From Kondoa malvinella (lineage: Eukaryota; Basidiomycota; Agaricostilbomycetes; Agaricostilbales; Kondoaceae): a DNA stretch of 64,000 nucleotides. The notes beneath the pieces are model-generated. The model was not told the origin of the DNA, searched no databases, and saw nothing but the letters and a program-made list of their open reading frames with translations. Position numbers and translations under genes: made by a program. This document shows positions 1 through 44,171 of the stretch, piece by piece; positions within the stretch are counted from its first letter, which is position 1; each line of letters starts with the position of its first letter. Where the stretch lies: positions 2,609 through 66,608 of the forward strand of contig BCIM01000005.1 in the NCBI GenBank assembly GCA_039545315.1, in the 5' to 3' direction.

Positions 1-418
1 CGAGAAGAAGAAGAAGCGCAACAAGACCAGGAAGGAGACTTACTCTACCTACATCTACAAGGTCTTGAAGCAAGTTCACCCTGACACTGGTATCTCCAAC
101 AAGGTCTGTCTTTTTTCTTTGGACGCGTCTTCTTCCTGTTGCTGACGTTGCTGTCCAGGCCATGCTCATCCTCAACTCCTTTGTTAACGACATTTTCGAG
201 CGCATTGCAACAGAAGCTTCCAAGCTTGCCCAGTACAACAAGAAGTCGAGCATCTCATCCAGAGAGATTCAGACTTCTGTTCGCCTCATTCTTCCCGGTG
301 AACTGTCCAAGCACGCTATTTCTGAAGGCACAAATTGAGTCTTGTCCTCTCTGTCTTCTGTGCTCTACTAATCTCTGAGATATCCAGGAGTGTCACCAAA
401 TACTCGTCCAGCAAGTAG
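1..418 (+). CDS. Histone H2B, 3' part (5' end outside window)
   Basis: Core nucleosome histone that pairs with H2A. Exon 1-103 starts inside the basic N-terminal tail ([12 protein letters not shown]) and enters the histone fold ([17 protein letters not shown]). Intron 104-158 is canonical GT-AG. Exon 159-334 carries the rest of the fold ([17 protein letters not shown], then HAISEGT). The last nine codons, SVTKYSSSK, are found at 388-415 with a stop at 416-418. They join in frame only if 335-387 is removed. That segment has a CTAAT branch motif and ends CCAG, but its donor reads TTGAGT where GTGAGT is expected. If it is not spliced, the frame stops at TGA 336-338 and the protein loses the VTKY lysine, the conserved ubiquitination site of fungal H2B. 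Family identity is certain; the fate of the last intron is open. Confidence 0.95.
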
Positions 419-29889: not shown

Positions 29890-32168
29890 TTACACACCAT
29901 ATGAATCAGTCCGCTGCATCCTCCTGCCCCTGTCGGTCTCGTCGATTGGCTCAATAGGCTGCATTTGACTGTCGAAAGATCGGAGCGACGACCGACTTCT
30001 GGACCTCGAAGCTGACCTCGAAACTGATCTAGAAGGTGCGCGAGGGAAAGGCACATCTGATTCTGCATCTGCTTCGTTCCCGTCTTTCGGCGGAGCTGGT
30101 CTGCTTCTTGATCTGCTTCTGCTCGGAGCACGACAGCGACTTTGCGGTCTTCGATGTGGTGATGCAGAGCTGGGCAGATCCACCTCGGGCCAATCTTGCA
30201 CTAGCCAAGTAGACTCCAACACTTGCTTGATCGTCCACCTCTGTTCCGGATCGACGCAGAGACAACCTTGCAGCAATTGAAGGAGAGCGTCCTTCTGTTC
30301 CGACGAGTTGCCAGCATTGATCACTCTTGGTAGACTCCAGTCGCCTTTTTGAATTATCAACCGCAGCTTTGGCTCGAAACCATTGTTGAAAGGCAGACGA
30401 CCTTCCAAGAGCGCATACAGCACGCATCCCAATGCCCAAACATCAACACCATACGCGAGGACAGGCGAGACTTGGCGAAGCTGCTCAGGTGCGCAATAGT
30501 TGAGCGAACCAGCAGGGGAACGAGCTTCTTCGTCCATAGCAGCTTCGAAACCCGACATGGACACGGGTGCAGATCGCTCTCGGTGATGATGCCCGTCCTT
30601 GTCTTCTGTTTCCTCTCTTCCAGCAACAGCCAAGCCAAAGTCCGCAAGCATAAACTTGCCGCCGCCGAGCAGAATGTTCTCCAGCTTGACATCCCGATGA
30701 GTCACTTGCTGCCCATGCAGATGAGCCAGACCAGCGGCGACTTGAGAAAAGATGTGCTTCGACAGCGATAGCGGTAGTCCCTTTGGTGTGACGGAAGAGG
30801 CAGTCGCAGTAGAATAAGATCGGCGAGAGCGACTTGCGGCGGGCGAAAATAGCCGGCCATCAGCAGCGCCGAAATCGTTGAGGTACTGCAAGAGGTTGCC
30901 TCCATCGCATTTAGGCATAAAGACGTATGTTGCATACTTGGTCTTGTGAACTGCCATGAGAGGGACAACATGTGGATGAGGAGGTAACTTGGACCACACT
31001 GAGATTTCCTTGTCGAGGTAGGCATCATATTGAGGTTGACTGAGCTTGCCGGCGCCGTTATCGACGTGCATCTTGCTAGCATTGAGAGTTTGCACGGCTG
31101 CGGCGAAGGATGTACTGCCATGTTCGACGGAGGAGAAAGGTACCGGAGTAGAGTTGGCACGATTGCGATTGCCGCCAGGAGAGACGTCAAATTGGAACGG
31201 TAAGCCCGGACTGAGAGGTGGGTAAAGGTCTTTTGGTGTAGCGTCTTCTTCATCTTCGTCTGGCACAACCTGCTTGTGTTTGATGACTTTGACAGCGGCT
31301 GGCTCTCCTGTTGCAATCTTGAAGCATTCTCTTACTACCGAGAAAGCACCAACACCCAAAGTCCTGCCAATTTGCCATCCCGCGACCTCTGTTTCATCAT
31401 CTGGATCAACGTCCGTCGCATCATCCGTTTCACCACCTGATTTTGATGGACTTGCAAAGCCGGAAAGAAAAGCAGCAGCTGGTGAGCGAACAGAAGAGAA
31501 CGAAGAAGCAGTAGATTCGGCTCGACCAAAATAGGAGTCGCCGCCTGAACTTCTGGAAGTAGAGCGGTTCAGGTGCCTTCCACGCGGAGGTGAAAGAGAT
31601 GCGTTTTGCGCATCAGAGAGACCGGAGTAGCTGGATGTGGTCTTTGAACGTGAGCTTGATTTTGTAGGCTCGTTCATAGACGTGGGCTCGGCGGTCAGCT
31701 GGCAGCATTTTTTAGTTGTGGTACCATGAAGAAGGAGAAATGACATACGGGAGCCGTTGTTTGCCTTTTCCTATCGTCAAGCATCTCATCGTAGCTTTTG
31801 CGTAATGTCGGAGAGCGCAAACCTTGATCAGAAGGCGAAAGGGTGCTCGCATCTTCGCTGAGCGAGCCAGAGCCAGCTATACCGCCTGCAGGACTGTCGC
31901 ATACCGAAAGCGCTTGTAGCTTATGAACCTTCTTGACTCCAGGAATGGCAATTGAAGCAGAAGATGATGCCAAGCTGCTTCCTCGCGGCGAGTTTGACGC
32001 AATAGACGAAGAGCTAGGTGCACGACGTCTGTTCAGAGCGCCTCTCGGGTCGAATGGTTCGAAATTGTCGCCGGAATCATTGGGAGAGCTTTGAAATGCG
32101 CTGCTGTTTGAACGAGAACGTGCTTCATGAGGAGTCTGATACCCAAGGTCTGCGCCAGTCAGGGCCAT
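29890..32168 (-). CDS. Serine/threonine protein kinase
   Basis: Two exons joined across intron 31699-31748 (GTATGT...TGCCAG). Start ATG 32168 (MALTGADLGYQTPHEARSRS). The N-terminal about 250 residues are Ser-rich and disordered. Kinase landmarks: WQIGRTLGVGAFSVVRECF (Gly loop), AAVKVIKHK (catalytic Lys), a 40-odd-residue insert after it, KEISVWSKLPPHPHVVPL, THRDVKLENILLGGG (catalytic loop), LADFGLA (DFG), LNYCAPEQL (APE) and DVWALGCVLYALLEGRLPF. The C-terminus is an Arg/Ser-repeat tail (RSRCRAPSRSRSRSRPAPP). Looks CAMK-like and close to fungal Nnk1/RAN-type kinases. The exact orthologue is uncertain. All catalytic residues are present. Confidence 0.9.
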
Positions 32169-42739: not shown

Positions 42740-43993
42740 GGCTGTGGAAGCAGTGTGATCATCTGCATTTTTGCGAAAAGCCAAAAACTATGGGCTATGG
42801 CTACCGTCTGGTCACCCCACATTCGTGGTCAGTAGCGTGTGGTGTAGCGAGACATTCACGAGGATGACATAGAGAGGACATTCAGGCAGAGGCAGAGCTG
42901 AACGAGGGAACAACGAGAAGTCCCGGGGCAAGGGCGGGCAAGCAACCTGAAACAAAGAGCGAGGAGCTGCAATGGAATCTTCATAGAAAGGCAGCATGAC
43001 ATTCAATAATAGGAATAGAGCGAAGTGTGCGCTCGATGAGACACACTGAGACTTGGATGTCCAATTCTGCACGGAATCGTTTTGGCTTGATCTTCCCAAC
43101 GTCCATGCAAGGCATTGCGCGAGGGTAACGACCATCAAGGGTCTGGACAGTTGAATGAAGCAGTCAGAAACGCCAGCCTGGTCGAAGACACTTCGCTGCA
43201 GGCTGCTGCAAAACATGAAATTGACAGAAAGAGCTCGACACAAACAGCATGCATGGTCGCAGGTCCGCTCGCGACTGCAGCGAGGTACAAGGATCTTCAG
43301 TCTTCGATTGCTGTTAATGCGAATAGCGGCATCTGTCTGCCTTGCACACGATCATATATTCAAACTACTTTCCTTTGTCTTATTAAGCCTCTTCTCCTTC
43401 TTTCATCGATGGCTCGTCTTGTTTCGTGCTCGTCTTTCTAAATGCTCGTGGAAAGAAAGAGCTTCTACAAATCAGTCTCGTCTTTGCTCGATATCAGCTC
43501 TACCGTTCAAGTACGGAAGCCCTACATCGAGCCTATCACAGAGTACACTCTCATACTGGTGCGCTATAGACTGCTCCCTCACAAAGGCGCTCCTCGCCAG
43601 CTACTCTTTTCGGTCAAAATCGTTGCATGACAGGTGAGCAACTTTTCGGTCAAGCTCCAAGTGCTCATATACTACGACAGTAGGATACAGTTCTAGCTGT
43701 CCTGCATTGCTCCATCATACTCAAGGCCACTCGTTAGGACACCAGTCGCAGGATCTGACTCAAATTCCTTCCTTTACCAAGTCATTGTCAACTTTCGATC
43801 AGGATCATCCCGGTCACCTACCTCAAGCCACAGACACATTGGTACACCAAGAAGAGCATACAGTGAGTACTCCATCGCAAAAAAGAACAAGATTGGCCGA
43901 AAAATGGTTGATCGTCTTGCATTGTTGGCTATATATAAGCCAAAAAACGTCTTCCCTTCATCAAATCAGACGTCTAGCAGCGTCTCAACTTCG
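42740..43993. other. Long intergenic region, possible unresolved small gene
   Basis: 1.25 kb between the ZIP gene and the tRNA. Plus-strand stretches with coding character (QDLTQIPSFTKSLSTFDQDH at about 43750-43810; KPYIEPITEYTLILVRYRLL at about 43520-43580) may be exons of one short gene, but I could not link them into a model. Confidence 0.3.
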
Positions 43994-44156
43994 GGAGAGA
44001 TGGCCGAGTGGTCTAAGGCGCCAGCTTAAGGTGTTCATCACTAAAATCGAGTGTTCAAGTCATTCGCTGGTCTTCGGGCGCGGGTTCGAATGTAAGTTGC
44101 AACATCAGCAGCCAGGTGCCCTGGACTAATCGATCATTAACAGCCCGTTCTCTTCA
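43994..44156 (+). tRNA. tRNA-Leu(AAG) with anticodon intron and a 52-bp T-arm insertion
   Basis: Acceptor 5' strand GGAGAGA (43994-44000), D arm GCC...GGC, anticodon stem CCAGC (44021-44025) and loop TTAAGG with anticodon AAG (44028-44030). An intron of about 33 bp at the canonical position after base 37 (44032-44064) is followed by GCTGG. Then a short variable arm TCTTCGGGC and T-stem GCGGG with loop TTCGAAT (44085-44091). Here the gene is interrupted by 44092-44143. Then CCCGT (T-stem 3' half), TCTCTTC (acceptor 3' half) and discriminator A 44156. With both insertions removed, the anticodon stem pairs perfectly and the acceptor and T stems each contain one G-U pair. A T9 run follows 6 bp later. 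The T-arm insertion splits the internal B box after GGTTCGAAT. Confidence 0.85.
44092..44143 (+). other. Spliceosomal-type intron inside the tRNA T arm
   Basis: 52 bp, starting GTAAGT, containing GGACTAATC 19-27 bp before its end and ending AACAG; these are the same three signals as in surrounding mRNA introns. It also has a small hairpin, CCAGG-TGC-CCTGG (44112-44124). It lies between the T loop and the 3' half of the T stem, a position not used by ordinary eukaryotic tRNA introns. Confidence 0.75.
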
Positions 44157-44162
44157 CAACAC

Positions 44163-44171
44163 TTTTTTTTT
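44163..44171 (+). terminator. Pol III T-run terminator
   Basis: Nine consecutive T residues 6 bp after the tRNA discriminator base, a normal RNA polymerase III terminator. Confidence 0.85.

Follow-up and report, generated by a model that had tools for sequence, protein, structure and literature searches.

Can a tRNA gene house an intron of the kind that interrupts protein genes? The question is raised by a tRNA-Leu(AAG) gene in the window, which is the whole stretch of 64,000 nucleotides that was analyzed (C5:2609-66608 of a 19.1-Mb, 20-contig fungal genome). An earlier note on this DNA had described a 52-nt insert in the T arm of the gene and offered two readings: a Pol III gene that houses a spliceosomal intron, or a gene that is dead or read by Pol II. 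The bolder of the two is now by far the better supported. The finding is also larger than first noted, with at least ten tRNA genes in this one genome that appear to carry introns of the spliceosomal type.

The gene occupies 43994..44156 of the window, both introns included, and lies, like all the features given here, on the forward strand. With both introns removed it fits a cloverleaf, which ARAGORN calls tRNA-Leu(aag) with a score of 120.5. Upstream, a TATA-like element, TATATATAAG, can be read at 43930..43939. The 5' strand of the acceptor stem (GGAGAGA, 43994..44000) pairs with 44149-44155 and is followed by a D arm of the form GCC..GGC (44003..44019). The anticodon arm, CCAGC TTAAGG..C GCTGG, has the anticodon AAG at 44028..44030 and holds a 33-nt intron at 44032..44064. 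This is the canonical anticodon intron, located after position 37 and not of the GT..AG form, and the insert in the T arm is, as had been claimed, separate from it. The variable region reads TCTTCGGGC.

The 5' strand of the T stem and the T loop (GCGGG TTCGAAT) span 44080..44091, and the ectopic intron follows at 44092..44143, between T-loop position 60 and T-stem position 61 and so outside the canonical 37/38 place. It starts with GTAAGT, contains GGACTAATC, and ends in AACAG, with CAG as the 3' site. A motif search places a branch-point-like CTAAT at 44126..44130, the A of which, at 44129, is 14 nt before the intron end. Beyond the insert are the 3' strands of the T stem (CCCGT, 44144..44148) and the acceptor stem (TCTCTTC, 44149..44155), and then a run of nine T residues resembling a Pol III terminator (44163..44171). 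Every element that had been described is present in the sequence; the small corrections are that the mature 5' end is at 43994 and the discriminator base is at 44156. ARAGORN and Rfam, when run on the window, called no tRNA, as is expected of a doubly interrupted gene.

The boundaries of the inserts were first placed by eye with GT..AG in mind, and the deletion scan that came afterwards was blind to splice motifs. Among 8322 single deletions of 15-90 nt in the Leu(AAG) gene, the top cloverleaf score was shared by three. All three are 52 nt long and begin after base 96, 97, or 98, and one of them is exactly GT..AG; for a random insert at this site, the probability of GT..AG by chance is 0.0044. 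The earlier note had also asked whether this is the sole tRNA-Leu(AAG) locus. No second copy was found in four genome searches, which used limited patterns that are blind to copies with an insert in the D arm or the anticodon arm, or with an unusual D loop. Another word match, at C1:1757596, was rejected as a second Leu(AAG) because the complete Leu pattern list has no Leu D arm there.

The other suggestion was to look for similar inserts in other tRNA genes of the same genome, and nine further genes proved to have an ectopic insert of like length. Altogether, 38 tRNA genes were read. In ten of them, each with its own anticodon, there is a single ectopic insert of 48-53 nt, and eight positions are used in all. 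The remaining 28, with 21 anticodons, have at most a canonical anticodon intron. In the analyst's reading of standard tRNA numbering, the inserts lie at 15/16 in Arg(UCU) (49 nt) and Ile(UAU) (51 nt), at 25/26 in Leu(UAA) (50 nt), at 32/33 in Thr(CGU) and Leu(CAA) (49 nt each), at 51/52 in Gly(UCC) (52 nt), at 52/53 in Arg(UCG) (48 nt), at 53/54 in Asp(GUC) (53 nt, just ahead of the T loop), at 57/58 in Ala(AGC) (50 nt), and at 60/61 in Leu(AAG) (52 nt). All except the Gly gene have a canonical anticodon intron as well. Among the ordinary genes, those for Phe(GAA) lack introns altogether.

The 28 ordinary genes are the 30 matches to RF00005 at E ≤0.001 minus Gly(UCC) and Thr(CGU). The ten interrupted genes are these two, all four weaker RF00005 matches (Arg(UCG), Ala(AGC), Arg(UCU), and Ile(UAU)), Leu(AAG) and Leu(UAA), which were found through a Leu pattern, and Leu(CAA) and Asp(GUC), which were found by prediction. 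T arms that fit a 3'-end pattern but had no RF00005 match were predicted beforehand to belong to genes interrupted upstream, and a hidden insert was present in both genes examined. The guess at identity was right in one of the two: Asp(GUC) was as guessed, and the gene guessed to be Val was Leu(CAA). The gene numbers are lower bounds, since 63 of the 531 candidates were scored against RF00005. No gene was seen among the 38 for Met and initiator Met, Trp, Tyr, Cys, His, Val(AAC), Val(UAC), Pro(UGG), Lys(UUU), Glu(UUC), or Arg(CCU).

Four of the ten interrupted genes were unlisted in the Rfam tRNA search, three were below the cut-off, and one was just at it. As far as could be read, the tRNAs overlooked by standard finders here are the interrupted ones; owing to the inserts, such finders return an incomplete tRNA set for this genome. 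Eighteen candidate stretches were examined, of which four hold counted tRNA genes, 13 have no tRNA, and one, L101 (C2:1747479, within C2:1747300-1747650), has a tRNA-like 3' end (GCCGG TTCGAGC CCGGC, acceptor GTTGGGT, G). The 180 nt preceding the L101 end contain no recognizable 5' half, repeated GTCGCTTCGCGACAG hairpins come before it, and the locus was left out of the tRNA counts. In another set of 30 candidate loci, a tRNA visible to ARAGORN was present in three. As for the arrangement of the tRNA genes, five duplicated ones (two of three Glu, and Lys, Thr, Phe, Gly) have their copies in inverted orientation on one contig, separated by 2-27 kb (C5:938830/940953, C2:2568367/2573232, C2:2276644/2287409, C13:119662/135899, and C5:932028/958717). 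Ile(AAU) has two copies, one on C2 and one on C9.

Are the interrupted genes still fit to make tRNAs? Upon removal of the insert, ARAGORN returned the expected tRNA identity in all ten cases. The spliced cloverleaf scores (mean 31.1, minimum 28.5, n=10) match those of 22 distinct ordinary tRNAs (mean 30.8, minimum 28.5). How tightly the cloverleaf alone fixes the cut differs among the genes. Leu(AAG), Leu(UAA), Ala(AGC), and Asp(GUC) each leave two or three equally good choices, Arg(UCG) leaves about ten, and Thr(CGU), Arg(UCU), and Ile(UAU) leave many; the GT..AG cut falls below the best score by 0.5 in Gly(UCC) and by 1.5 in Leu(CAA). Thr(CGU) also has an unspliced parse with a 53-nt anticodon intron, which scores 30.5 compared to 32.5 for the spliced form and puts a G instead of a U at position 33.

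These scores bear on the suggestion that the interrupted genes are dead or spare copies that have suffered insertions. According to one account, insertions in the D or T arm of eukaryotic tRNA genes elsewhere are held to be mostly pseudogenes (PMC4090602), and one gene of the ten, Ala(AGC), may have a spare. However, the stems and conserved bases of the interrupted genes are on par with those of ordinary ones, their ten anticodons do not overlap with the 21 seen in the ordinary genes, and the limited searches found no second Leu(AAG). The "dead" part of the earlier alternative is therefore disfavored, and we regard it as barely credible.

The Ala(AGC) gene (L098, C3:1148089) deserves a closer look. 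Its insert runs from GA to AG (GAATGT..CAG) and has good branch motifs, and the start, GAATGT, is one base from GTATGT. The stretch from its D stem to its anticodon has a second exact match at C2:2579629-2579645, where there is no RF00005 match and which is perhaps another interrupted tRNA gene. Given this possible second copy, the GA..AG copy may be decaying; its insert would be either a non-canonical intron or part of such a decaying gene.

The inserts can be compared with the introns of protein genes in the same genome. All but the Ala(AGC) insert have GT..AG ends, for which the chance in a random insert is 0.003-0.011 per gene. The 5' sites of these nine are GTAAGT, GTAAGC, GTGAGT, GTATGT, GTTAGT (two), GTACGG (two), and GTTGGT, of which GTACGG is outside the GTNNGY form used in the intron counts. 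A branch-like motif, [CT]TNA[CT], with its A 11-15 nt before the end, is present in nine of the ten (CTGAC in four, CTAAT in two, and CTGAT, CTCAT, and CTTAT in one each); the Asp(GUC) insert, which contains an N, has no such motif. GT..AG ends together with CTNAY at 11-15 nt are seen in eight of the ten, at a random-insert probability of no more than 0.0005 per gene.

For the protein genes, segments of the form GTNNGY..CTRAY..YAG were counted in 274 kb and compared with 20 dinucleotide shuffles. The counts, which are slightly inflated because the window gene was unmasked and some loci partly overlap, were 54 versus 36.6 at 40-44 nt, 158 versus 37.5 at 45-49 nt, 116 versus 35.8 at 50-54 nt, and 64 versus 37.4 at 55-59 nt. 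The peak lies at 45-54 nt. No excess was seen at 60-94 nt, and at 95-99 nt the count was 45 versus 34.1 (sd 6.9). In protein-gene-type segments of 46-54 nt, counted with the window gene masked, the commonest distance from the branch A to the end is 11-13 nt. A coding-score scan for protein-gene introns was too noisy and was replaced by this consensus count and by an intron proven by homology, that of a histone H2B gene (104..158, forward strand; 55 nt, GTCTGT..GCTGAC..CCAG), whose joined exons read as H2B (PDB H2B, E 5.9e-56). As to other protein genes, a kinase at 29890-31746 of the window has its nearest named kin in Microbotryomycetes, and two other proteins have matches at 82% and 92% identity in genome assemblies.

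The window insert agrees with these introns in its ends, branch motif, and length, and it has the U1-like GTAAGT 5' site with a CAG end, the branch distance, and the length of the U2 type. Ten genes hold inserts as long as the protein-gene introns of this genome; GT..AG ends are seen in nine of these inserts, and a suitably placed branch motif in nine. This lends strong support to the proposal that a spliceosomal intron sits within a Pol III gene.

For the controls and ALTERNATIVES, 24 canonical anticodon introns served as the comparison class. They are 4-33 nt long, and none of the 24 can be slid into a GT..AG form; the one in Thr(UGU) is 7 nt by the analyst's scorer and 19 nt by ARAGORN. They matter for another possible source of the inserts, namely ectopic tRNA introns of the kind found in archaea, red algae, and nucleomorphs, which the tRNA endonuclease cuts at bulge-helix-bulge motifs or relaxed versions of them. 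Ectopic introns in the D and T arms are known in such organisms, and many of those in the Guillardia nucleomorph are described as having no defined motif (PMC4090602, PMC3978253). However, GT..AG ends, a branch motif, and a narrow range of 48-53 nt are unexpected for introns of the endonuclease class and are absent as common traits in the 24 anticodon introns. A simple bulge-helix-bulge score at the ectopic junctions was also no better than that of shuffled inserts in any of the ten genes (P 0.48-0.94), although the test is crude, as the anticodon introns did not stand out in it either (best P 0.073). An endonuclease origin for the inserts is thus highly unlikely. At about 50 nt, they are also far too short to hold a group I or group II catalytic core.

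Nor do the ten inserts look like copies of one another. Their best pairwise alignment score was 10.5 of about 50; the maximum for shuffles, which lacked the shared ends, was 6.5. A search for near-identical copies, made with the window gene and its insert, found no second match in the genome.

Which polymerase, then, would transcribe such genes? The earlier note had stated that the insert splits the Pol III B box. A cut does exist, but only the last two bases are severed (GGTTCGAAT|GT) and nine of the 11 consensus positions are retained. Among the other unspliced genes, the insert itself damages the B box in Ala(AGC), where it leaves 8/11. Thr and Arg(UCG) have 9/11 with the insert present or absent, five of the ten genes have 11/11, and Asp has 10/11, the final AG of its intron substituting next to TTCAATTCC. 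Within the anticodon intron of Leu(AAG), upstream of the damaged B box, is a B-box-like word, TGTTCAAGTCA (44052-44062; 9/11, with the core GTTCAAGTC complete), which might be a substitute promoter element or a chance match.

Signals outside the genes were examined as well. A T run of at least five lies in the downstream 40 nt of all eight interrupted genes for which that sequence was covered. In many tRNA genes of this genome, T4-T6 followed by GC (TTTTTGC) is a recurring terminator context in the same interval. TATA-like words (at least 7/8) are found upstream of 18 of 32 tRNA genes (300 shuffles: mean 30%, maximum 50%). A shortage of T runs inside the inserts, which would be a sign of Pol III, was not found; runs of at least T4 occur in 2/10 inserts versus 33/209 protein-gene-type candidates. 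The Ile(UAU) insert contains a T5 run, which might stop Pol III.

Some of these observations could be taken to mean that the introns are spliceosomal but that the genes are transcribed by Pol II, and hence loaded for splicing in the usual way. Spliceosomes normally load onto Pol II transcripts. The TATA-like elements, the damaged B boxes of Leu(AAG) and Ala(AGC), and the T5 run in Ile(UAU) would all fit. Against this stand the T runs after all eight genes with known downstream sequence and the B boxes of 11/11 in five genes and 10/11 in Asp. The U6 RNA of fission yeast, moreover, is a Pol III transcript. It is reported to be spliced by the pre-mRNA machinery (PMC5832005). Pol II transcription is a variant of the spliceosomal explanation and does not exclude it; this part of the earlier alternative survives, as an unlikely one.

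The anatomy of the gene, the likeness of the inserts to protein-gene introns, the restored cloverleafs, and the recurrence in ten genes are observed. On these grounds, the window insert is very probably a U2-type spliceosomal intron in the T arm of a working, apparently the only, tRNA-Leu(AAG) gene, and many such genes are likely to exist in this genome. Making the interrupted tRNAs would then probably call for the spliceosome in addition to the enzyme that ordinarily splices tRNA. In the proposed course of events, for which the polymerase, the splicing machine, the order of the steps, and the function are all inferred from sequence, Pol III would transcribe Leu(AAG) from the upstream TATA-like element and the mostly kept B box and would stop at the T9 run. 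The 52-nt intron would be taken out by the spliceosome in the nucleus, whereupon the T arm could fold and the ends be trimmed. The 33-nt anticodon intron would then be cut by the ordinary tRNA endonuclease, and the halves would be joined by the ligase. The spliceosome is placed first and the endonuclease later because a precursor with a split T arm could hardly be trimmed before the ectopic intron leaves.

Taken further, the data suggest, quite probably if with somewhat less assurance, a fungal lineage in which spliceosomal introns have invaded a large part of the tRNA gene set at many positions. Translation itself would depend on the spliceosome, and single precursors would pass through both machines, the spliceosome and then the tRNA endonuclease and ligase. 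In teaching, the splicing of tRNA is kept apart from that of mRNA, each having its own machinery; genes needing both would couple the supply of tRNA to the spliceosome. If this is true, the spliceosome must be able to act on tRNA precursors in which the T, D, or anticodon arm has not yet formed. Such genes would also document how introns are gained where there is no reading frame and where the cloverleaf can pin down the site of insertion.

Other small RNA genes of the genome were also searched. U6 has a single full-length match of 116 nt (C14:428362-428477), and since it is in one piece, U6 has no intron here. The U2 match at C4:804689-804918 is a stretched one, spreading 192 positions over 230 nt (52 bits), and no conclusion was drawn from it. 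The 5S rRNA (RF00001) was not found in the genome, in which the rDNA may be unassembled.

How do the inserts compare with known systems? No report of spliceosomal introns in tRNA genes was found in searches of the open-access literature; subscription papers or preprints may hold a precedent. Ectopic tRNA introns are, in the sources cited here, attributed to the tRNA endonuclease in Cyanidioschyzon merolae, cryptophyte nucleomorphs, and archaea, many with a bulge-helix-bulge, and those of Guillardia are 3-24 nt long (PMC4090602). For example, the Ile(UAU) gene of C. merolae is described as having introns at 12/13, 37/38, and 53/54, and the D- and T-arm introns of this alga are supposed to leave before the anticodon intron (PMC9602550). 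The inserts in the present genome, unlike those, are 48-53 nt long, with GT..AG ends in nine of ten, a branch motif, and no bulge-helix-bulge detected by the crude test. They are also a class separate from the canonical nuclear anticodon introns, which are present after position 37 in nine of the ten interrupted genes. Introners, which are mobile spliceosomal introns, would, as they are described, explain intron gain at many sites (PMC9860276, PMC4457414). The present inserts differ from introners in that none of the ten is a copy of another, and the window gene, insert included, has no second match.

The nearest known cases are the U6, U2, and U3 RNA genes, U6 being a Pol III gene. Fungal introns in these genes are, like the tRNA inserts, GT..AG spliceosomal introns with a branch motif in small, structured, non-coding RNAs. 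For instance, those of the fungal U3 snoRNA are described as ending in YAG, with the branch about 15 nt upstream of that end (PMC5832005), and an mRNA-type intron is reported in the U2 snRNA of Rhodotorula hasegawae (PMC2586383). In the present genome, by contrast, U6 is uninterrupted and the hosts are tRNAs, which are many and most of which also have an endonuclease-type intron. The kind of intron is itself ordinary; the novelty is in the tRNA genes that host it.
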